From positions 6,348 to 16,351 of the forward strand of contig MFDZ01000040.1 in NCBI GenBank assembly GCA_001777455.1: a stretch of DNA of 10,004 nt, written 5' to 3'. The notes below the pieces were generated by a model. That model saw nothing but the letters and a program-made list of their open reading frames with translations, ran no database searches and was not told the DNA's origin. The stretch's first letter is position 1; every line of letters starts with the position of its first letter. A program made the translations under genes and the position numbers. Origin of the DNA: Candidatus Daviesbacteria bacterium RIFCSPLOWO2_02_FULL_41_8. Lineage in GTDB: Bacteria; Patescibacteriota; Microgenomatia; Daviesbacterales; UBA10151. This document shows, piece by piece, positions 2,712 through 9,196 of the stretch.

Positions 2712-3782
2712 TTATTTTACTAATCTGAGTTCTGCTTCTATGAACTGGTTCAAGTCTCCGTCCAGCACTGCGCCGGTATTGGAGGTTTCAACGTTAGTCC
2801 GTAAATCTTTTACCATATGATAAGGATGCAGGACATAGGAGCGGATTTGGGTGCCCCAGGAAGCTTGAGTGACACCGCCTTTCATTTCTTTTTTTAGCTC
2901 TGCCTCCTCGGCTTGCTTGGCAGCCCACAACTTTGCCATCAACAGTTTTAAGGCATTCTCCCGGTTTTGCAGTTGGGACCGCTCGGTTTGGGCGGTAACA
3001 GTCATGCCTGTGGGAATGTGTTTTAGCCTGACGGCGGTGGAAACTTTATTGACATTTTGCCCGCCGGCGCCGCCGCTTCTGAAAGCTTCAAATTCAATAT
3101 CGCCTTCATTAATTTCTACCTCTTCCGCGCCGATAACCGGCAAGATTTCCACCAGCGCAAAAGAGGTTTGGCGCAGCTTATCGGCATTGAAAGGGGATTG
3201 CCGGACTAGCCGGTGTGTGCCTGCCTCGCCTTTTAGGTAGCCGAAGGCAAAGTCGGCGTGAACAATCATGGAAACGGTTTTAATACCGGCCTCTTCCCCG
3301 GGGTTTTCATCTGTTACTTCAAATTTCCAATCCGTTTTCTCAAAATACCGCTGGTACATCCGGACCAGCATGGCAGCCCAATCCATAGCTTCCACCCCAC
3401 CTGCTCCCGAGTGAACGGACACAATTGCTTCGGATTCGTCGTGCGGATTGGATAAAAATAATTTCAATTCCAGCTTATCTAAAATTTCCACCATTTCCTT
3501 AATTTCTTTTTTTAATTCCTCCTGCATGGAAGCTTCTTCCGAAATTTCCAGGGCATTATTGATTCTGGATTCTAAATCTTCCAGCACTTTTAGCGTCTTT
3601 TGTTTGGCTGATAGCTGACGGCTGATGACTGACGACTCTTCCGGACTGTTCCAAAAACCCTCTTTCATAGTTTGGGCTTCCAGTTCTCTGATTTCAGTCC
3701 GCAACCGATCCCGGTCAATCGCCAGTGCAACTTTCCCGAATCTATCTTTTAGTTCTTTTAATTTACTCTGAATTTCTTCCAT
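2712..3782 (-). CDS. prfB: Peptide chain release factor 2 (RF2)
   Basis: Class I release factor recognising UGA and UAA stop codons on the ribosome. At 356 aa it has the family length. It shows the helical N-terminal domain (1-110), the codon-recognition tripeptide SPF (196-198, in [19 protein letters not shown]1 would have PxT), and the catalytic GGQ loop (240-242, in [12 protein letters not shown]). The C-terminal [26 protein letters not shown] and [14 protein letters not shown] segments are typical of RF2. The reading frame is continuous through the position of the programmed +1 frameshift known in E. coli (here around LAIDRDR), so autoregulation by frameshifting is absent. Presence of RF2 agrees with UGA being a true stop (it ends the 1399 gene and tsaB), arguing against the UGA-glycine code of Gracilibacteria and Absconditabacteria. 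Confidence 0.97.
3607..3634. repeat. Four-unit heptanucleotide tandem repeat inside prfB
   Basis: Four consecutive 7-mers fit RCTGAYR on the plus strand: GCTGATA, GCTGACG, GCTGATG, ACTGACG. They encode residues around [10 protein letters not shown] in the N-terminal helical domain of RF2. Because 7 is not a multiple of 3, each unit is read in a different frame, yet the ORF stays open. Similar heptad repeats occur between genes in many bacterial genomes (recalled, not searched). Confidence 0.6.
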
Positions 3783-3788
3783 AGAGGA

Positions 3789-3794
3789 ATTATA
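3789..3794 (-). promoter_or_regulatory. Consensus -10 box for prfB (leaderless type)
   Basis: TATAAT on the minus strand ends 6 nt before the prfB ATG (3782), the same geometry as the 1824 and 9245 genes, so the mRNA would start at about the ATG. There is no Shine-Dalgarno in between and no convincing -35. The box is built from the terminal bases of the 58-bp palindromic element at 3790-3847. Confidence 0.5.
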
Positions 3795-3847
3795 AACGAA
3801 GTTTGAAAGCTTTGCTAGAAAACTGAGTTTTCAAGCTCCGCTTATAA
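3790..3847 (-). repeat. 58-bp palindromic element, copy A (inverted relative to copies B and C)
   Basis: Imperfect palindrome bounded by TTATAA at both ends, with arms that include ACGAAGTTTGAAAGC and GTTTTCAAGCTCCGC. Its reverse complement matches the elements at 9008-9065 and 9139-9196 along most of their 58 bp, differing mainly in the loop (TCAGTTTTCTAGCAAA against TTTGTTTGAAAGATGA). It abuts the prfB promoter. Three copies in 10 kb in both orientations indicate a dispersed repeat family. Confidence 0.8.
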
Positions 3848-3857
3848 CTTATTCATT

Positions 3858-3898
3858 CGTCATTGCGAGGAGTGAGTCCTCGAACGACGTGGCAATCC
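3858..3898. repeat. Short dispersed palindrome, TCATTGCGAGG...GCAATCC type
   Basis: Outer arms ATTGC (3862-3866) and GCAAT (3892-3896) enclose an inner GAGGA/TCCTC pair. The sequence resembles the TCATTGCGAGG...GCAATCC repeat that I recall as common in intergenic regions of very diverse bacteria. Only one copy is present in this window, so repeat status rests on memory of the motif plus the palindrome. Confidence 0.6.
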
Positions 3899-3917
3899 AT
3901 ACAATAATTCTTTTTAT

Positions 3918-3939
3918 GTACTTTTGTAACCAAAAGTAC
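3918..3939. repeat. Perfect 9-bp hairpin flanking the large palindrome
   Basis: GTACTTTTG (3918-3926) and CAAAAGTAC (3931-3939) pair perfectly around a TAAC loop. It is followed by CAAAAGT-like repetition and then, within 10 nt, by the 142-nt palindrome. It may be the left end of the same composite element. Confidence 0.6.
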
Positions 3940-3947
3940 CAAAAGTT

Positions 3948-4089
3948 TCTTTGACGGGAAGTCGCGCTACTCTTCGGATTTTGTCTAGCGGGGGCTCACC
4001 CCCTCGGAAATTCACTAATCGTTCAGTTTCCGGTTCCCCCTGTTGTCAAAATCCTCATCGTTTGACGCGCGCGATTCCCAAGTCAAAGA
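3948..4089. repeat. 142-nt nested long palindrome (MITE-like or structured RNA)
   Basis: The arms pair in order. TCTTTGAC (3948-3955) pairs with GTCAAAGA (4082-4089), GGGAA (3956-3960) with TTCCC (4075-4079), and TCGCGC (3962-3967) with GCGCGA (4069-4074). GGATTTTG (3976-3983) pairs with CAAAATCC (4047-4054), GGGGG (3990-3994) with CCCCC (4036-4040), and CGGAAA (4005-4010) with TTTCCG (4027-4032). That is 38 paired positions, separated by small bulges and loops. GGGGG can instead pair with the nearby CCCCC at 3999-4003. No ORF of note lies inside. It may be a small non-autonomous mobile element or a structured RNA; the sequence alone does not decide. Confidence 0.7.
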
Positions 4090-4123
4090 TGAAGAAAAAA
4101 GCTTCGAAGCAGTATTTCCTATC

Positions 4124-4152
4124 TTGACGGGAGGTTAGGAAGACAATAAAAT
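4124..4152 (+). promoter_or_regulatory. Candidate sigma-70-type promoter upstream of the 4164 ORF
   Basis: TTGACG (4124-4129), a 17-nt spacer and TAAAAT (4147-4152) on the plus strand. The predicted transcript start near 4159 lies about 5 nt before the ATG at 4164, the same spacing as at the 6898 gene. The promoter could alternatively drive a non-coding transcript through the repeat cluster. Confidence 0.4.
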
Positions 4153-4163
4153 AATTACTTATT

Positions 4164-4373
4164 ATGGCGAGCAAAATTGAAATTAAGTTGGGAGCAATAT
4201 CAGCATGGAGAAGAGGAATGAGAGAAACTGGGTCGCCTGACGATAATCAGCCAGCTAATCCTTCTTCACTAACACAGGAAGGCACTTTTGACGATAGAGG
4301 AGGTTGTCAGCCTCCTTATCATCCTACTCTAAGTATTTCTGCAAGTTTGCGACGAGCCTGCGAACCAATTTAA
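4164..4373 (+). CDS. Doubtful small ORF, 69 aa
   Basis: I do not recognise this ORF. The product begins MASKIEIKLGAISAWRRGMRE and then becomes a Pro-, Ser- and Gly-rich sequence with no domain, signal or membrane segment. In favour: a well-spaced TTGACG-17-TAAAAT promoter sits right before it. Against: it lies in a region packed with palindromes, has no Shine-Dalgarno, and its 3' half contains the hairpin AGGAGG/CCTCCT (about 4300-4316), which looks like more repeat material. The most likely readings are a fortuitous ORF or a decayed gene with an intact 5' end. The remainder of 3783-4687 holds only the palindromic units listed separately. Confidence 0.22.
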   Translation: MASKIEIKLGAISAWRRGMRETGSPDDNQPANPSSLTQEGTFDDRGGCQPPYHPTLSISASLRRACEPI

Positions 4374-4414
4374 ACGAACAATATTCCCGTATTTACCTTT
4401 GTTTTCCTTATTCT

Positions 4415-4458
4415 TGAACCAGAATACCTCGCAGCTTGCTGCGGGGATGAATGGTTCA
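4415..4458. repeat. Two-tier hairpin, TGAACCA outer and CGCAGC inner arms
   Basis: Outer arms TGAACCA (4415-4421) and TGGTTCA (4452-4458) pair perfectly. Inner arms CCTCGCAGC (4427-4435) and GCTGCGGGG (4438-4446) pair with one G-T wobble around a TT loop. The two tiers are separated by symmetric 5-nt internal loops. This is a highly regular structure, typical of a dispersed palindromic repeat unit. Confidence 0.65.
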
Positions 4459-4463
4459 CAGAA

Positions 4464-4508
4464 GAACTTTCCGAAGGATACTCCGTCAGCTCTGCTGCGG
4501 AGTAGTTC
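4464..4508. repeat. Branched palindrome, GAACT...AGTTC
   Basis: Closing arms GAACT (4464-4468) and AGTTC (4504-4508) enclose two stems: a mini stem TCC/GGA near 4470-4478, and ACTCCGTCAGC (4480-4490) with GCTGCGGAGT (4494-4503), which pair with a single bulged T. It follows the TGAACCA hairpin after 5 nt and may form a composite unit with it. Confidence 0.6.
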
Positions 4509-4528
4509 ATTTTTCTTCCCCAAAATTG

Positions 4529-4558
4529 ACATTAATGTTACGGCCGTAGTGTTAATGT
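4529..4558. repeat. 30-bp near-perfect palindrome centred on CGGCCG
   Basis: ACATTAA (4529-4535) and TTAATGT (4552-4558) are perfect arms, and the core TACGGCCGTA (4539-4548) is itself fully palindromic; only the TGT/GTG triplets between them fail to match. It could be a protein-binding site or another repeat unit. It lies at the end of a run of hairpins. Confidence 0.55.
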
Positions 4559-4579
4559 ATAAAGAATCCGCAAACTGGT

Positions 4580-4598
4580 CCTGAGTGAAATCGAAAGG
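4580..4598. repeat. CCTGAG...CGAAAGG short dispersed repeat motif
   Basis: The 19-nt motif has CCT and AGG ends. It resembles the CCTGAGCGAAGTCGAAGG-type sequence that I recall as one of the commonest intergenic repeats in environmental bacterial genomes. There is a single copy here, and identification is from memory. A weak CCACC/GGTGG hairpin (4612-4628) follows. Confidence 0.4.
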
Positions 4599-4687
4599 CG
4601 TCTATACAATTCCACCCCCTAATGGTGGACGGCAGAAGCTTGGACAGTGGATTTATGGTTCGCCTCTTTCGTAAAATTCCGGGAAAG

Positions 4688-5575
4688 CTAAGACTTTCGT
4701 AAAGCTGCCAAAATGCCTTTGAGATTGAAGCGTCTTCTGGGCTTCCTTGAAGCTTTATTAGTCTCTACCATTTCAGTAATTCCTGGCAGGATTGTTGCAA
4801 AATGCGCGTCAACTATTTCTTTTAAGCGTGGCCACGGCAGCTCACCGGACATTATTGAAGAGACATCGTGCCTGCTAAGTCTAAAATCGAAACCCGGTTT
4901 ATGACTATCTGAATGATGACTATCTTCGCTTCTCAGTAGAGGATTTTCATTGATAAACGATTTTAAACCGGAAATGTTAAGATCGGGTAGTAAATCAAAA
5001 CCCACTCGTCTTAATTTACTTTCTATATAAAGTGCTGTAGCGTCTGCTCTTTGTTCATAACCCCCTGATACTTTTTCTGCTTCTAATTCTTGTTTTCTCC
5101 ATTCGCAACCTTCGGGAAGTGAATTATTGTCCAGTAAATCTAAAGTATTAGAAGCTGTTAACATCCAATCTGCATCCTCATAGGTAAATAGATGGCCTAT
5201 TTCGTGTAAAAGCATACCTGTTACTGATTTTCTACTCCATCGTAGAAAATCAGAAGGAACCTCTATTAATCTGTTTTTATGAGCACAGAAAGAATGCTTG
5301 AACCATGTTGCGTTATAAATTGAGAATCGTGTTCCTTCAGGAGACAAAGCTTTAAGTGGTATGTTTCCTTTTGGTGTATTGCAGAAAATTTCCATATCAT
5401 TTCTTGGGCCTTGAAAATGAAGAACGATTCCACCGGGTTGTGGCAAGCGGTGATCCAAAACATCGGGGATCTGATATTTTTTATGTGCCCATTCATAATA
5501 ACTTCCCCACCCAAAAGGGAGGTGTTGGTTGATTGCTCTGCGGAATCTATTACCGGTATAAATCTCATTAATCAT
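4688..5575 (-). CDS. Putative zinc metallopeptidase (HEIGH motif, gluzincin/IrrE-like pattern)
   Basis: A 295-aa soluble protein without signal peptide or membrane helix. The key feature is LLHEIGHLF, with the HExxH zinc motif at 124-128 (H124 and H128 ligands, E125 general base). About 45 residues later GGYEQRADATALYIESKL offers E174 as a third ligand in a helix of E-x-x-A-D pattern, as in ImmA/IrrE-like and related gluzincins. The rest matches no family I know. A His/Asp/Ser-rich stretch (SEDSHHSDSHKPGFD, 216-230) may bind metal or be a flexible linker. The C-terminus is strongly basic (KASRKPRRRFNLKG). It is the last gene of a three-gene operon, starting 9 nt after the asparaginase-like gene, with no strong Shine-Dalgarno. 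The substrate is unknown; regulatory proteolysis would be a guess from the fold. Confidence 0.75.
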   Translation of the reverse strand: MINEIYTGNRFRRAINQHLPFGWGSYYEWAHKKYQIPDVLDHRLPQPGGIVLHFQGPRNDMEIFCNTPKGNIPLKALSPEGTRFSIYNATWFKHSFCAHKNRLIEVPSDFLRWSRKSVTGMLLHEIGHLFTYEDADWMLTASNTLDLLDNNSLPEGCEWRKQELEAEKVSGGYEQRADATALYIESKLRRVGFDLLPDLNISGLKSFINENPLLRSEDSHHSDSHKPGFDFRLSRHDVSSIMSGELPWPRLKEIVDAHFATILPGITEMVETNKASRKPRRRFNLKGILAALRKS

Positions 5576-5584
5576 AAAATCGTA

Positions 5585-6115
5585 TTATCTTTCTTCACTG
5601 CTGAAGACTTCGTGAAGCTTTCCCTGTTTGATATATTCGTTTACCTCTTCCAGGGTGAATGACCTGCCTTCCAAAGATACGTAAATACCGGCCGGTAAAT
5701 GTTGGGTCTTGGCAAAGGCATAACCTAAATTAAACGGCGCATCGGAAAAATCAAAAGCGATAAGCGGTGTGGTTGCCGCAGTAAAGACAATAGTTTGATC
5801 TTTACGTTTCAGGTGTTCTTTAAGATAACGGGCGCTGTCTGGCATGGTAAAACGGCCGTGCGTAATAATGATATTTTTTGACGGGCTTTCCTCTATTGTC
5901 TTTAACATATTTTTCCGATCCTCCGCTGTCAGCTCCCGTGAGTCTTTCGTGCACACTTGAGTAAACGTAGTGTCGTCAAGCAGTTGATAATCCTCGAAAT
6001 AATCCGGAATTGCTGATTCCTTGTTAAGCTCTATTGCATCAAGCCTTTTATTCCATCTTGAATCAATAGTGCCGCCCATCAATATAAAGTGAACTAGTGT
6101 TTTATCTGTTTTCAT
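5585..6115 (-). CDS. Single-domain L-asparaginase-like protein with altered active-site residues
   Basis: A 176-aa protein matching only the N-terminal domain of bacterial asparaginases (full enzymes have about 330 aa). Visible landmarks are MGGTIDS (13-19, with T16 equivalent to the nucleophile T12 of E. coli AnsB), TKDSRELTAEDR (56-67), IITHGRFTMPDSARYL (83-98), IVFTAATTPL (109-118) and APFNLGYAFAKTQHLPAGIYVSLEGRSF (126-153). The last is typical of the short stand-alone asparaginase-like family. The canonical HGTDTM is here HGRFTM, so the residues equivalent to catalytic T89 and D90 are R88 and F89. Classical asparaginase chemistry is therefore doubtful; amino-acid or nucleotide sensing, or a different amidase activity, is possible. 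It begins 1 nt after the ACT-gene stop and precedes the metallopeptidase gene by 9 nt. Confidence 0.85.
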   Translation of the reverse strand: MKTDKTLVHFILMGGTIDSRWNKRLDAIELNKESAIPDYFEDYQLLDDTTFTQVCTKDSRELTAEDRKNMLKTIEESPSKNIIITHGRFTMPDSARYLKEHLKRKDQTIVFTAATTPLIAFDFSDAPFNLGYAFAKTQHLPAGIYVSLEGRSFTLEEVNEYIKQGKLHEVFSSEER

Positions 6116-6116
6116 A

Positions 6117-6761
6117 TTATTTATTAAAATAAATATTCATTGCTTTAATTGCCGGTTCCATATCTTCTTTTGCAATTATAAAAGAGAGCTCCGTATAGGT
6201 TGATACCAGCTCAAAAATGTTTATCCGTTTTGTGGCCAGAGCGCTGAGTAGTGTATAGATTATATTGGGAGTAGTAGCTTGTTTTTCACTGAAAGCAACA
6301 CTGACAGCCACGAGTCCATTAATTTCCGCTTTTGGTTTTGACCCGATATTTTTAAGGATAATATCTTTTGAGCGGTCAGAGCAAATGATGGTAATCTCTT
6401 CCGGCCCTTCGGTAACGGAAAAAAGGTCATTGATAGGAAGCAAAAAAGGATTCATGACAGAGATTTTTCTTTGAGTATCGATAGATTTTTTATATGTGAG
6501 AATAGTTAGGGATGATTTAATGCCGATGTTGGTGAGTGAAACGTCCTGAATAAGGGCAGCCGCATTGGGCAGGTGCTTGGTAATCCTGGAGAGCGCCACC
6601 ACAATAGTCCCCCTTTTAACCGGTTTTTTGGTGGCATTTTCAACGTTTTTGTGAATTTTATCCGCATAAGCGCTTAAGTTCAGCAAGCCTGTCCGGAGAG
6701 CTTCGCTGGCTATTTCGTCTGTTTGAATGATTTCTAGAACCGTATCTGTGATTTTTATCAT
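6117..6761 (-). CDS. ACT-domain protein, probable amino-acid-responsive regulator
   Basis: A 214-aa protein. The C-terminal region (about 147-212: EINGLVAVSVAFSEKQATTPNIIYTLLSALATKRINIFELVSTY split over beta-alpha-beta, then ELSFIIAKEDMEPAIKAMNIYF) has the aspartokinase-type ACT pattern, including the RINIFELVST turn where ligands usually bind. A second, degenerate ACT-like half may lie at about 112-145. The N-terminal 100 residues are mostly helical with no enzyme motif, so this is not a kinase. I chose the ATG at 6761 because AGGAGG (6767-6772) sits 5 nt upstream. A longer reading from 6878 would run through promoter and hairpin sequence and yields an implausible extension. First gene of the operon with the asparaginase-like and metallopeptidase genes; sensing of Asp/Asn-like amino acids would fit the neighbour but is inference. 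Confidence 0.72.
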   Translation of the reverse strand: MIKITDTVLEIIQTDEIASEALRTGLLNLSAYADKIHKNVENATKKPVKRGTIVVALSRITKHLPNAAALIQDVSLTNIGIKSSLTILTYKKSIDTQRKISVMNPFLLPINDLFSVTEGPEEITIICSDRSKDIILKNIGSKPKAEINGLVAVSVAFSEKQATTPNIIYTLLSALATKRINIFELVSTYTELSFIIAKEDMEPAIKAMNIYFNK

Positions 6762-6776
6762 AATCCCCTCCTCGTC

Positions 6777-6805
6777 ATCCTGATCCGGCTTTGCCGGAGA
6801 AGGAT
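6777..6805 (-). repeat. Hairpin in the 5' leader of the ACT gene
   Basis: Outer arms ATCCT (6777-6781) and AGGAT (6801-6805) and inner arms CCGGC (6785-6789) and GCCGG (6793-6797) form a symmetric two-tier hairpin with 3-nt internal loops and a TTT loop. It ends 4 nt upstream of the AGGAGG ribosome-binding site, so it could modulate initiation. The sequence looks like a dispersed repeat unit. Confidence 0.55.
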
Positions 6806-6808
6806 CTA

Positions 6809-6826
6809 TTGTAATAAATATTACAA
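6809..6826. promoter_or_regulatory. Perfect palindrome TTGTAATA-AA-TATTACAA, candidate operator
   Basis: Two 8-bp arms (6809-6816 and 6819-6826) are perfect inverted repeats around AA. GTAATA recurs as direct repeats at 6811, 6830 and 6839, the last touching the minus-strand -10 box. The palindrome sits about 11-28 nt downstream of the predicted ACT-operon transcript start. It fits a homodimeric repressor site, or an RNA hairpin in the leader. Confidence 0.5.
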
Positions 6827-6843
6827 AAAGTAATAAGTGTAAT

Positions 6844-6872
6844 ATTTTACCAAAAATTTTACATCTTGTCAA
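6844..6872 (-). promoter_or_regulatory. Strong sigma-70-type promoter of the ACT-asparaginase-like-metallopeptidase operon
   Basis: On the minus strand, consensus TTGACA (6867-6872), a 17-nt spacer and TAAAAT (6844-6849). The transcript would start near 6837, giving a 5' leader of about 76 nt that holds the palindrome, the two-tier hairpin and a real Shine-Dalgarno. It interlocks with the plus-strand promoter at 6858-6886. Confidence 0.7.
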
Positions 6873-6886
6873 ACCCATAATAAAAT
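6858..6886 (+). promoter_or_regulatory. Promoter of the PP2C-like gene, interlocked with the divergent promoter
   Basis: TTTACA (6858-6863), a 17-nt spacer and TAAAAT (6881-6886) on the plus strand. The transcript would start near 6893, about 5 nt before the ATG at 6898, which has no Shine-Dalgarno. The -35 box lies inside the spacer of the minus-strand promoter and the minus -35 lies inside this spacer, so both cannot be occupied at once. Confidence 0.6.
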
Positions 6887-6897
6887 ACGTAACTTAT

Positions 6898-7770
6898 ATG
6901 GTTAAACATGAATTCGAACAACCTATATCAATCACAGATATCTGTAGCGGATTAGACCTGCAGTTCTCCGGATACTCCCGGGGACCTGCTGCTTATAATA
7001 CTAATTCGGATCTTATTTACTTAAGTGGAGAGGAAAGGTTAACAATCATTATGGATGGGTTCGGACCAGATACTGAAGGGGTTAACCGCAAAGCATTAAA
7101 CCTTATCAGAAATGGGTTAAATAGAATTAAGGCAGGTGATGTTGAGAAAGTCCGAAAGGAGATGGGAGAAGTGTTATTTAAATCTTCCAATACTCTAGCT
7201 CGGAGGCTCAAAGGGGTAGGAGGTCTAAGTGTGGTAGCGGTTAAATATGTTAGTACACCTTACTTACGGACAGCAGTCTTTGGATGGTTAGGCAAGGCTA
7301 GGTTATATTCTGACGATCGAGGAATATACCAGCCTTTGACCATTGATGACACCTACGAGTTGGCTTACGAAGATCGTGAAGAGGCTAGGGGGGCAATGTG
7401 GGCACTTGATTATACAAAAGATCCAGAGAAGCTTGAGCCTCTTTCTAGGATCAGACAAATTTGGAATGAGAGTCCATCAATGCCTCCTTACAGGTATTTA
7501 GGTAAGGCTAATTTAGATAGTGTATATGTTAATTTAGCGCCTATATTCCCCGGGACAAAGTTGTTGTTAGCCACAATTGGCTTATACAGAAATTTAACTG
7601 CCCGGGAGATTAGAAATATTCTTAGAACTGAATCAGATCCGGCAAAATCTTTGGTGGAATTTGCTTGGGAGCGGTCTCAGAACCCGGCCAATAAGAGGGC
7701 AGATCGCAACACGGATATTTCGACAATCGTTGTGGAAGAGAAAACCATTGGGACTGGAGCAAGGAGGTAG
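6898..7770 (+). CDS. PP2C-like (PPM) phosphatase-fold protein with degenerate metal site, probable pseudophosphatase
   Basis: A 290-aa soluble protein with the order of PPM/PP2C landmarks. These are LTIIMDGFGPD (48-58, DG at 53-54), GGLSVVAVKYV (108-118), RTAVFGWLGKARLYSDDRGIYQPLT (124-148), KLLLATIGLYRNLTAREIRNIL (221-242) and TDISTIVVEE (272-281, D273). In active enzymes the third and fourth read GDSRAY and SDGLYD; here the aspartates are replaced (GWLGKARLY, TIGLY), so two of the metal-coordinating acids appear lost while D53 and D273 remain. That suggests a regulatory or binding role instead of catalysis, though an unusual metal site is possible. The start is set by a promoter whose transcript begins about 5 nt upstream. 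The next gene follows after 3 nt. The family call rests on motif order and spacing and needs a structure comparison to be firm. Confidence 0.65.
   Translation: MVKHEFEQPISITDICSGLDLQFSGYSRGPAAYNTNSDLIYLSGEERLTIIMDGFGPDTEGVNRKALNLIRNGLNRIKAGDVEKVRKEMGEVLFKSSNTLARRLKGVGGLSVVAVKYVSTPYLRTAVFGWLGKARLYSDDRGIYQPLTIDDTYELAYEDREEARGAMWALDYTKDPEKLEPLSRIRQIWNESPSMPPYRYLGKANLDSVYVNLAPIFPGTKLLLATIGLYRNLTAREIRNILRTESDPAKSLVEFAWERSQNPANKRADRNTDISTIVVEEKTIGTGARR
7761..7767 (+). promoter_or_regulatory. Strong Shine-Dalgarno for the 7774 gene
   Basis: AAGGAGG lies 6 nt before the ATG at 7774 and inside the last codons of the PP2C-like gene. It fixes the start of the downstream gene and shows it is translated from an internal site of the same mRNA, in contrast to the leaderless-type first genes of this window. 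Confidence 0.85.
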
Positions 7771-7773
7771 CTT

Positions 7774-8580
7774 ATGGGAGAAGTTGTATCAAATAAAGAG
7801 AGCAAAAATATTCCATTATCCGAGATCGAACTAACGGAGCTAGATAAGATCCGCTGGGCTCATGATGAGCCGCATCCTGATGATGGAACGCAGCCATTGT
7901 TTGGGCTCTCAAAGATCATTATGCCTGTCTCCGGAGGTAGAAACCATATTCGCATGAATGGTGTAGGACAGCTAGAAAAAATATTTTTTGCTGAAAAGTC
8001 TAACGTTGGCGTAATAGATTCTGACCGAGAAGAAGAATGGAGCCGCTTAACCTTTAGTAACCTAGGTTTTCATAGACCTATCACATCTTTTCTCAATTCT
8101 CCCAAGGGTATTGTTGATCCGCTTAATGCCGAGCGAATCAATGAGATTGGTGATTTTGTGGTTGAGGTTAATCAAGTCTTTACTCAAGATCATCAGTCCA
8201 GGTTGGTTATTGAAGCGCAACAAAGCGTCTTGAAGATGTACCAACAGTATATGCAATCAGGCATTTTGAGTGGGGATGATAAAATGCTTCAACAACTCAT
8301 TGAGAATGCTTCAGTGCATTTACAAACTTTGCAAAAAACTAGAGAAAGTTTACCGGAAGGTATCCGCCAACTTGTTCCCCGGGTCAAGCAGTTAGGTATA
8401 TTTTTCATTGATGAAAGAGTTTTTAGTAGCGTTTATCGAGGTTTGCAATTTGATCCTCTCATCATAAAAACTCTTTATACCCCTGAGACGGATAATCTTA
8501 GCTTATCTGATTTACGGGAATATTGGTGGAAGCTACCTGAGCTCAAGCCTTTGAACTTAAAAGATCTGGCGGCCTTATAA
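7774..8580 (+). CDS. Protein of unknown function, 268 aa, cotranscribed with the PP2C-like gene
   Basis: I do not recognise a family. It is a soluble, mildly acidic protein with no signal peptide or membrane helix. The N-terminus is charged and probably flexible (about 1-40, includes DEPHPDDGTQP). A mixed region follows (LSKIIMPVSGGRNHIRMNGVGQLEKIFF, then VGVIDSDREEEWSRLTF). Residues about 118-200 look mainly helical and Gln-rich (VVEVNQVFTQDHQSRLVIEAQQSVLKMYQQYMQ), with possible coiled-coil character. The C-terminus has aromatic motifs (LREYWWKLPELKPLNLKDL). A very good Shine-Dalgarno and a 3-nt gap after the PP2C-like gene make it a real gene and a probable functional partner of that protein, for example as a binding partner or effector. 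That partnership is inferred from context only. Confidence 0.8.
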   Translation: MGEVVSNKESKNIPLSEIELTELDKIRWAHDEPHPDDGTQPLFGLSKIIMPVSGGRNHIRMNGVGQLEKIFFAEKSNVGVIDSDREEEWSRLTFSNLGFHRPITSFLNSPKGIVDPLNAERINEIGDFVVEVNQVFTQDHQSRLVIEAQQSVLKMYQQYMQSGILSGDDKMLQQLIENASVHLQTLQKTRESLPEGIRQLVPRVKQLGIFFIDERVFSSVYRGLQFDPLIIKTLYTPETDNLSLSDLREYWWKLPELKPLNLKDLAAL

Positions 8581-8618: not shown

Positions 8619-9005
8619 TTGGGGATGGTTTTAAGACGAAGTCGCAAGCTTTGCTTATATATTGATACTCGGGGCGGTTCCACCACTAAAGACCGGAAAG
8701 TTATTAAAGTTTCTTTGAAAAAGGAGGGGAAGGTGGTGGGGAGTTTAAGCGCGGATAATGAGTATGGCTCGCAAGCCCTTTTGCCTTTGATTTTGAAATT
8801 ATTTCGAACCTACAATCCCGGATTGTCAAGTCAAATCCAATCCGGGATTGGAAGCTGGGATGAACTTGAAGGGATTGAAGTAGAAACCGGGCCGGGATCT
8901 TTTACCGGACTGCGGGTCGGGGTGTCTGTAGCTAATGCCCTAGGGTTTGCGCTGGGAATTCCTGTTAATGGGAAAAAAGTGGAAACAAAATTACAATATA
9001 ATTGA
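8619..9005 (+). CDS. tsaB: Short TsaB (tRNA threonylcarbamoyladenosine biosynthesis), N-terminal-domain form
   Basis: TsaB is the non-catalytic partner of TsaD in making the t6A modification of tRNAs that read ANN codons. The 128-aa reading shows LCLYIDTRGG (11-20, the ASKHA phosphate-1-like start), GSQALLPLILKLF, then the diagnostic VETGPGSFTGLRVGVSVANALGFALGIPVNG (87-117). E. coli TsaB has about 230 aa; here everything after the first domain is absent, as I recall for CPR homologues. The start is unsure: TTG at 8619 or ATG at 8625, both reasonable and with no clear Shine-Dalgarno. Between the helix LLPLILKLF and the strand LEGIEVETG there is an extra stretch NPGLSSQIQSGIGSW coded by a perfect palindrome. 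The 58-bp repeat begins 2 nt after the TGA stop and may end transcription. Confidence 0.87.
   Translation: MGMVLRRSRKLCLYIDTRGGSTTKDRKVIKVSLKKEGKVVGSLSADNEYGSQALLPLILKLFRTYNPGLSSQIQSGIGSWDELEGIEVETGPGSFTGLRVGVSVANALGFALGIPVNGKKVETKLQYN
8814..8849. repeat. Perfect 12-bp inverted repeat inside tsaB
   Basis: AATCCCGGATTG (8814-8825) and CAATCCGGGATT (8838-8849) are perfect inverse complements around a 12-nt loop. The 36-nt unit is a multiple of three and keeps the tsaB frame open, adding residues roughly NPGLSSQIQSGIG to a surface loop. It looks like an in-frame insertion of a dispersed palindromic repeat. Confidence 0.75.
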
Positions 9006-9007
9006 TC

Positions 9008-9065
9008 TAATAAGCGAAGCTTGAAAACTTTGTTTGAAAGATGAGCTTTCAAACTTCGTTTATTA
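9008..9065 (+). repeat. 58-bp palindromic element, copy B
   Basis: Imperfect palindrome with TAATAAGCGAAGCTTGAAAAC at the left and its near-complement GCTTTCAAACTTCGTTTATTA at the right (18 of 21 positions match). It matches copy C (9139-9196) at 57 of 58 positions and is inverted relative to copy A (3790-3847). It starts 2 nt after the tsaB stop, so it may act as a transcription barrier. Confidence 0.88.
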
Positions 9066-9138: not shown

Positions 9139-9196
9139 TGATAAGCGAAGCTTGAAAACTTTGTTTGAAAGATGAGCTTTCAAACTTCGTTTATTA
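9139..9196 (+). repeat. 58-bp palindromic element, copy C
   Basis: Identical to copy B except for one base near the left end (TGATAA for TAATAA), in the same orientation, 131 bp downstream. Such near-identity next to diverged copy A implies a recent local duplication or insertion. Confidence 0.88.

Follow-up and report, generated by a model that had tools for sequence, protein, structure and literature searches.

We report the analysis of a 10,004-nt stretch of the genome of Candidatus Daviesbacteria bacterium RIFCSPLOWO2_02_FULL_41_8 (the window; positions 6348-16351 of contig C40 in an assembly, G000, of 0.99 Mb in 70 contigs), and describe a divergent gene cluster lying in it between the genes prfB and tsaB. 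Five genes, all with an intact open reading frame (ORF), face away from a common control region: on one side the gene of an ACT-domain protein (ACT), followed by those of an asparaginase-fold protein (ASP) and a putative zinc peptidase (HEIGH), and on the other the genes of a PP2C-like protein and of a further protein, P268. In the reading that we prefer, with a probability of roughly 0.55, the cluster occupies a cargo slot, ACT would be a regulator with ASP as its partner, the two forming the core, the regulator would bind palindromes and control both arms, and the rest would be cargo.

The slot in question would be one between two divergent housekeeping genes of a Daviesbacteria-type (Microgenomatia) genome. 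ACT would combine a basic, DNA-binding N-terminal domain with an aspartokinase-type sensor part responding to an amino acid, presumably of the lysine or aspartate family. By binding the palindromes of the control region, it would regulate its own operon, ACT-ASP-HEIGH, together with the divergent PP2C-P268 pair. ASP, its catalysis lost, would most likely act as an asparagine- or aspartate-binding partner or co-sensor in contact with ACT, and PP2C-like, P268 and HEIGH would be lineage-specific cargo brought under the ACT switch. Bacteria of the Candidate Phyla Radiation (CPR) have few biosynthetic genes. If the reading is true, it would offer for these bacteria a family of amino-acid-responsive regulators that is open to testing, its DNA site and lysine-pathway targets being predicted, and the locus would illustrate how the fold of a metabolic enzyme can become the partner of a regulator. 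In the open-licence PubMed Central (PMC) literature little was found on amino-acid sensing in CPR bacteria and no paper on ACT regulators in Patescibacteria, on lysine in Daviesbacteria or on short-chain asparaginases in Patescibacteria, and neither this ACT family nor a partner of the pseudo-asparaginase kind was found described.

The ACT family and its palindromic sites

ACT was matched by Pfam ACT_7 (PF13840), a ligand-binding domain, at E=1.8e-7 (31.3 bits, cut-off 27). This part of the family resembles the regulatory (C-terminal) domains of aspartokinases, and NCBIfam models of those regulatory domains matched below their cut-offs. Homologues were found in 56 of 373 genomes of the class at E<=1e-15. 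Locus comparisons were made on 33 distinct ACT loci, namely 31 of the 60 matches in the class (the window included) together with loci L124 and L111; a duplicate, L082, was dropped, and genes were taken as mechanical ORFs of at least 100 aa. The start codon at 6761 lines up with the starts of 32 aligned family members. A longer reading of 253 aa from 6878, which crosses a dispersed repeat, was rejected since the aligned family starts at 6761. Residues 28-64 carry a mean net charge of +4.2 across the family, and K46 and R59 are invariant in all 33 rows. Pfam returned DUF7523 in 16 of the 33 members, ACT models and a few weak matches to single members; the window protein gave one ThermoDBP-RP match at 0.016.

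In 30 of 32 loci the ORF upstream of ACT is divergent from it, a 33rd locus lacking a neighbour on the contig; among the other ORFs of these loci the figure is 92 of 320. Among ten loci tested from the distant, lysine clade, the first divergent gene encodes LysX in seven and DapB in one, and is unmatched in two.

A palindrome was scored as a 16-bp element with TGT/ACA ends and a score of at least 11/12 lying within 120 nt upstream, start codon included. Such an element precedes ACT in 22 of 33 loci. Among all-ORF controls it was present in 18 of 1514 (AT-rich subset: 13 of 312), and among divergent intergenic controls, with regions of 60-120 nt, in 2 of 292 (AT-rich subset: 0 of 105). With the laxer score of 10, the counts become 27/33 for ACT loci, 87/1514 for all ORFs and 17/292 for divergent controls. 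The window palindrome scores 12/12, and the enrichment of an upstream site across the ACT family points, at the level of sequence, to autoregulation. An earlier form of the test, in which TGT/ACA palindromes were sought upstream of the ATG only, had given 16 of 34 loci (one a duplicate) against 58 of 1539; 100 shuffles gave a mean of 2.3 of 34 and a maximum of 7. The criteria of the second test (start codon included, length fixed at 16, new score) were chosen after this first result, the start codon being included because many palindromes overlap it. Fisher p-values against the divergent controls are optimistic, given the post hoc criteria and the mutual relatedness of the ACT loci. The half-site varies between loci (TGTTAAAATTTTAACA, TGTATAATATTATACA, TGTAATATTTATTACA), a variation that would fit a regulator and its operator changing together.

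By BLASTN, part of the window region was found upstream of ACT in L124 (E=4e-10) and in genomes G284, G021 and G083 (8e-6 to 1e-3), and an element similar to the second, longer palindrome of the window stands upstream of ACT in L124. The promoter-like sites of the two arms overlap one another; the scan as a whole did not exceed shuffled sequences (16 sites found against a mean of 14.2, standard deviation 4.5). The best reading of ACT is that of an autoregulated amino-acid-responsive transcription factor, predicted to bind DNA, and with its sites it looks like a member of a widespread, apparently undescribed regulator family. As a separate observation, the upstream region of ACT is identical in L082 (G001:C67) and L217 (G341:C23), whose genomes carry different family labels, and this points to misbinning of a contig.

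A degenerate short-chain asparaginase beside ACT

ASP was matched by Pfam Asparaginase (PF00710) at E=1.1e-14, is of the N-terminal-domain type and, with 176 aa, fits a single domain of that type of about 160-185 aa. The ASP family profile matched solved asparaginase chains of 185 residues at E of about 1e-25. From their lengths and from the entry code 8uou, named in PMC10949315, we read these chains as the Rhodospirillum rubrum enzyme RrA. That paper gives T16, Y21, T87, D88 and K158 as the catalytic residues of RrA and reports that K158M abolishes its activity (PMC10949315). Compared with RrA, the window protein carries T87R, D88F, K158E, Y21W and K19S, and T16 is the only catalytic residue kept.

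Homologues of ASP were found in 8 of 95 related genomes (own genome, one fragment and one long asparaginase included). A named genome collection yielded 92 encoding stretches, of which 80 were kept, mostly from CPR bacteria, DPANN archaea and Micavibrio-like Alphaproteobacteria. After removal of asparaginase ORFs of at least 230 aa and of loci without an ORF, 78 rows were aligned. In the 77 rows besides the window, T87 is Thr in 75 (L118 has T87S), K158 is Lys in 71, and the position of D88 is Tyr in 61; this family-wide D88Y makes the activity of the whole ASP family uncertain. A residue without hydroxyl at T16 or T87 was seen in only three of the 78 rows, seven of which are gapped at T16 and not judgeable there: the window (T87R), G175 (T87L) and G022 (T16R). 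The window and G175 also share K158E, and K158 is missing in G022.

These three genomes are the ones in which ASP adjoins ACT. The two genes are adjacent in the same order and strand in the window and in G022; in G175 they are convergent with 1 nt between them, and another asparaginase-like gene, truncated where the contig ends, is divergent from ACT. On a 3.4-kb Giovannonibacteria contig, L124, ACT and ASP both occur, 2.2 kb apart. Adjacency thus holds for three of the 16 ACT loci in the close clade and for none of the other 17, and the ACT proteins of the window, G022, G175 and L124 group together, weakly (87/48). Among ASP copies found without the aid of peptide patterns, leaving out a fragment in G044 and a long protein in G083, the degenerate state holds for all three ACT-adjacent copies (G000, G022, G175) and for none of the four others (G004, G030, G032, G040). 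The branches of the ACT-adjacent copies are long (0.72-1.12, against a median of 0.3 over 69 rows). It is plausible that the pseudo-asparaginase serves as a co-sensor of ACT, and the candidate core of the locus with the best support is a regulator paired with a pseudoenzyme, the two lying under a divergent promoter that the regulator itself would control.

Two further observations concern ASP neighbourhoods elsewhere. In seven Alphaproteobacteria/Micavibrio loci (L146, L148, L149, L154, L155, L157, L158) the gene is preceded by an ORF of 472-480 aa, and a scan of 59 ASP neighbours recorded pyruvate kinase in 5, those of L146 and L149 having been checked singly.

The prfB-tsaB slot and its orphan cargo

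The left wall of the interval, prfB, has matches of 63-87% identity in 21 other genomes of the family, and the tsaB-like gene on the right is likewise conserved in relatives. Of 28 family genomes searched, six lacked a match to one or both genes; prfB and tsaB adjoin in all 22 that have both. With G036, G040 and G044, which were found through P268 or ASP, this makes 25 slot loci, and prfB (-) and tsaB (+) are divergent in every one. The spacer runs from 30 bp (G006, G007, G026) to 9,280 bp (G022) with differing cargo, and in seven loci it is shorter than 300 bp, with no ORF of 90 aa counted within. The cargo seen elsewhere includes a GNAT acetyltransferase, a PaaX/Cas2-like protein, a phosphoesterase, an Asp/Glu-racemase-like protein and an EamA transporter, and in three genomes (L060, L064, L066) an FtsE-like ABC ATPase flanked by two longer ORFs, an arrangement that we read as MacAB-like. 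The slots of G004 and G040 contain an ASP homologue and none of the other four window genes, that of G044 a 35-residue ASP-like remnant on the other strand, and that of G036 a P268 homologue (46%) with EamA, free of PP2C-like and of the left arm. Homologues of ACT are located outside the slot.

Slot cargo differs between relatives, and therefore what is conserved is the prfB-tsaB slot and not a five-gene system. An earlier note on this DNA, made from the letters and an ORF list, had proposed the five genes as a module whose synteny might be conserved. Their layout in two tightly packed arms is borne out by the ORF coordinates and by gaps of 9 nt (HEIGH/ASP), 1 nt (ASP/ACT) and 3 nt (PP2C-like/P268), but as a conserved unit the module fails. 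Both arms were not found together in relatives; P268 is the only one of the five in the slot of G036 and ASP in those of G004 and G040, G022 and G175 have ACT with ASP but lack the right arm, and homologues of ASP and ACT are scattered over many unrelated contexts. That the spacer serves as a cargo slot in this family is a caution against taking genes that lie side by side in it for systems.

ASP precedes prfB in G004, G040 and the Liptonbacteria locus L089. A functional link between the two was considered and set aside as resting on too few cases, and the arrangements in G004 and G040 may stem from one event. In L089, which lies outside the Daviesbacteria family, ASP stands upstream of a prfB-like gene at a distance of a few hundred bp.

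The orphan cargo consists of HEIGH, PP2C-like and P268. A protein database search recorded each of them on 13-17 contigs as 2-4 member sequences, and what links them to ACT is the shared control DNA and the packing alone. Pfam gave no match for the three, apart from an insignificant TetR match for P268, and the NCBIfam matches among the five proteins were all below family cut-offs, with none for HEIGH. HEIGH occurs in its own genome alone among the 373 of the class, with two metagenome relatives, and has a GC content at third codon positions of 0.29, against 0.37-0.50 in nine other genes measured. The HEIGH motif (124-128) and E174-x3-D178 are kept in all three sequences, and we take this HExxH with a downstream ExxxD to be a gluzincin-like signature; the structure model was unusable (mean predicted local distance difference test, pLDDT, 34.9). 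An uncultivated viral contig (L169:3231-6719) encodes a 1162-aa protein that has two HEIGH motifs and matches HEIGH weakly.

The match of PP2C-like to Stp1 in NCBIfam was weak (E=0.014). In an alignment with four PP2C-type proteins its first two Asp are conserved, but the Asp of GDxR, T-D-G and DD(I/M)(T/S) are replaced by K, I and T. With conserved Asp of this kind serving as metal ligands in PP2C enzymes, the predicted loss of at least two ligands holds. No relative beyond itself was found in the protein database, the best Protein Data Bank (PDB) sequence match was E 0.53, and the 95 related genomes gave weak matches only, in four genomes including its own. The same genome has an intact 448-aa PP2C paralogue on contig C29 (G000:C29; 27% to PP2C-like), and a second copy of the dispersed repeat of the left slot (L086:6806-6963) lies about 1 kb upstream of that paralogue. 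P268 has three relatives at 45-49%, occurs in 2 of the 373 class genomes (own included) and two metagenome relatives, and gave a model of pLDDT 66.7.

Phage cargo was considered and rejected, as was plasmid cargo in the case of HEIGH. PHROG matches reached only E 0.03-0.07 for the five proteins, viral scans gave nothing for P268 or ACT and one weak partial match for HEIGH, and neither the plasmid collection, searched with HEIGH, nor the phage collection, searched with P268, lent support. Rfam gave 0 matches, and a tRNA scan of the window found none.

The remaining features are listed in Table 1. In the left part of the slot, a 69-aa ORF at 4164-4373 resembles (45% identity over 49 residues) one found in G010 (L053) in the region of the prfB-tsaB spacer and is perhaps a gene shared with that genome and since decayed. 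A related copy of the 54-nt palindrome lies inside the slot of G012 (L063:2167-2208).

Table 1. Features of the window discussed in the text, with positions counted from its first letter
Feature	Position	Strand	Description
prfB	2712-3782	-	Peptide chain release factor 2, name read from similarity; left wall of slot
54-nt imperfect palindrome	3792-3845		Left slot edge; more copies at 9010-9063 and 9141-9194
Left part of slot	3783-4687		No supported gene (ORF list; BLASTN)
Dispersed repeat, left slot	3920-4068		82% to G000:C29
HEIGH	4688-5575	-	295 aa, putative zincin, orphan family; HEIGH and ExxxD kept in two relatives
ASP	5585-6115	-	176 aa, short-chain-asparaginase-like, predicted pseudoenzyme; PF00710
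ACT	6117-6761	-	214 aa, predicted DNA-binding regulator; basic N-terminal ~62 aa and aspartokinase-type ACT domain
Divergent control region	6762-6897		136 nt, between ACT and PP2C-like
Dispersed repeat	6774-6807		In ACT 5' leader; seven further genome matches
Operator-like perfect palindrome	6810-6825		TGTAATAAATATTACA; only TGT[AT]A-N6-T[AT]ACA in window
Second palindromic element	6838-6863		Longer, similar; overlaps -10 of ACT-side and -35 of PP2C-side promoters
Sigma70-like promoter, ACT-ASP-HEIGH	6844-6872	-	11/12, TG before -10
Sigma70-like promoter, PP2C-P268	6858-6886	+	10/12
PP2C-like	6898-7770	+	290 aa, predicted pseudo-phosphatase lacking acidic metal ligands
P268	7774-8580	+	Orphan protein; no fold match at E<=0.001
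tsaB-like gene	8619-9005	+	Name is a reading; Pfam PF00814 TsaD E=1.6e-9; right wall of slot

Competing explanations and comparison with known systems

Several results weigh against a regulator-partner core. Eleven of 33 ACT loci fall below the palindrome threshold; among the three with an adjacent ASP, the window alone reaches it (10 in G175, 7 in G022), and L124 has a score of 7, its element lying about 240-300 nt upstream. For the N-terminal domain of ACT no structure or helix-turn-helix (HTH) match turned up, the Pfam scan of the 33 members included, and the domain could be placed in no DNA-binding fold. ASP is not next to ACT at 13 of the 16 loci of the close clade (one of these contigs ends just upstream), ACT is missing from the fetched flank at 77 of 80 ASP loci (the exceptions being L111, L124 and L141, the last identical with G022), and neither tree unites the ASP-adjacent copies as one clade (two changes each). 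Both peptide patterns of the contig scan sit on catalytic positions, so that intact ASP copies are over-sampled. The ASP of L124 is intact as far as its contig reaches; the second asparaginase-like gene of G175 keeps both Thr, with D57, H85, D88 and K158 changed; and L156, with no ACT in the fetched flank, has an equally long ASP branch (1.07).

Alternatively, five unrelated accessory genes may simply have accumulated between prfB and tsaB, ACT regulating itself only and the others being passengers. Such hotspot cargo would account for the variable contents of the slot (EamA transporter, acetyltransferase and phosphoesterase among them), for ASP, P268 and ACT each being found without the others, and for the near absence elsewhere of HEIGH, PP2C-like and P268. 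We regard it as rather doubtful, given the adjacency of ACT and ASP in three genomes with matching catalytic loss, the ACT-family palindrome between both arms and the 1-9 nt spacing inside them. The earlier note's idea of a signalling or stress module of repurposed folds comes through in part on the same evidence. The PP2C fold lacking two ligands, the altered asparaginase and the ACT domain were all confirmed, ACT-ASP adjacency recurs with degenerate ASP copies, and the control region carries the ACT-family palindrome, but HEIGH and PP2C-like/P268 are tied to the pair by shared DNA alone. Its zinc peptidase likewise keeps the signature and lacks a Pfam or NCBIfam family.

Since ACT resembles aspartokinase C-terminal domains, and in G052 its gene precedes an AA_kinase gene, it might instead be the detached regulatory subunit of a split aspartokinase, with ASP as an aspartate/asparagine pool protein and the palindrome belonging to another regulator. 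The G052 neighbour is the only one of its kind seen, however, and ASP lacks the catalytic residues. Divergence from the upstream ORF in 30 of 32 loci, together with a palindrome that follows ACT itself, is what a local regulator typically shows, and we hold the subunit explanation to be improbable. A defence or conflict island, with a zincin toxin and a pseudo-phosphatase/P268 immunity function, would suit a hypervariable slot with patchy orphan genes; with 0 PADLOC matches and insignificant PHROG matches for all five proteins, a defence system was rejected as a candidate and the island is very improbable. We prefer ACT and ASP as a regulatory core within slot cargo. A wider version, which we hold only tentatively and below even odds, is that an undescribed family of ACT-domain transcription factors acts through TGT-N10-ACA palindromes to control metabolism of the lysine/aspartate family across Microgenomatia, and that one branch recruited a dead short-chain asparaginase as a dedicated Asn/Asp co-sensor, here also driving the pseudo-phosphatase arm.

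Compared with known systems, ASP shares with the short-chain L-asparaginases of the RrA type, as described in PMC10949315, the single-domain fold and the GGT and DS motifs. It differs in the family-wide Tyr at D88 and, in the window copy, in the further changes given above. HEIGH has in common with gluzincin metallopeptidases the HExxH and an ExxxD about 46 residues later; unlike them, it has no Pfam/NCBIfam family match and no significant PDB sequence match (best E 0.31). PP2C-like shares with PP2C phosphatases (Stp1/IreP) a weak profile match and an alignable DG motif; unlike them, it lacks conserved acidic metal-ligand positions. With stand-alone ACT regulators of amino acid metabolism, of the BCARR, TyrR and Lrp/RAM types, window ACT has in common an ACT sensor with a predicted DNA-binding part, a palindromic operator-like site, predicted autoregulation and a divergent neighbour. 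Unlike all of these, the window family has an N-terminal domain lacking a Pfam HTH match, reaches no NCBIfam cut-off and is accompanied by lysine genes as neighbours.

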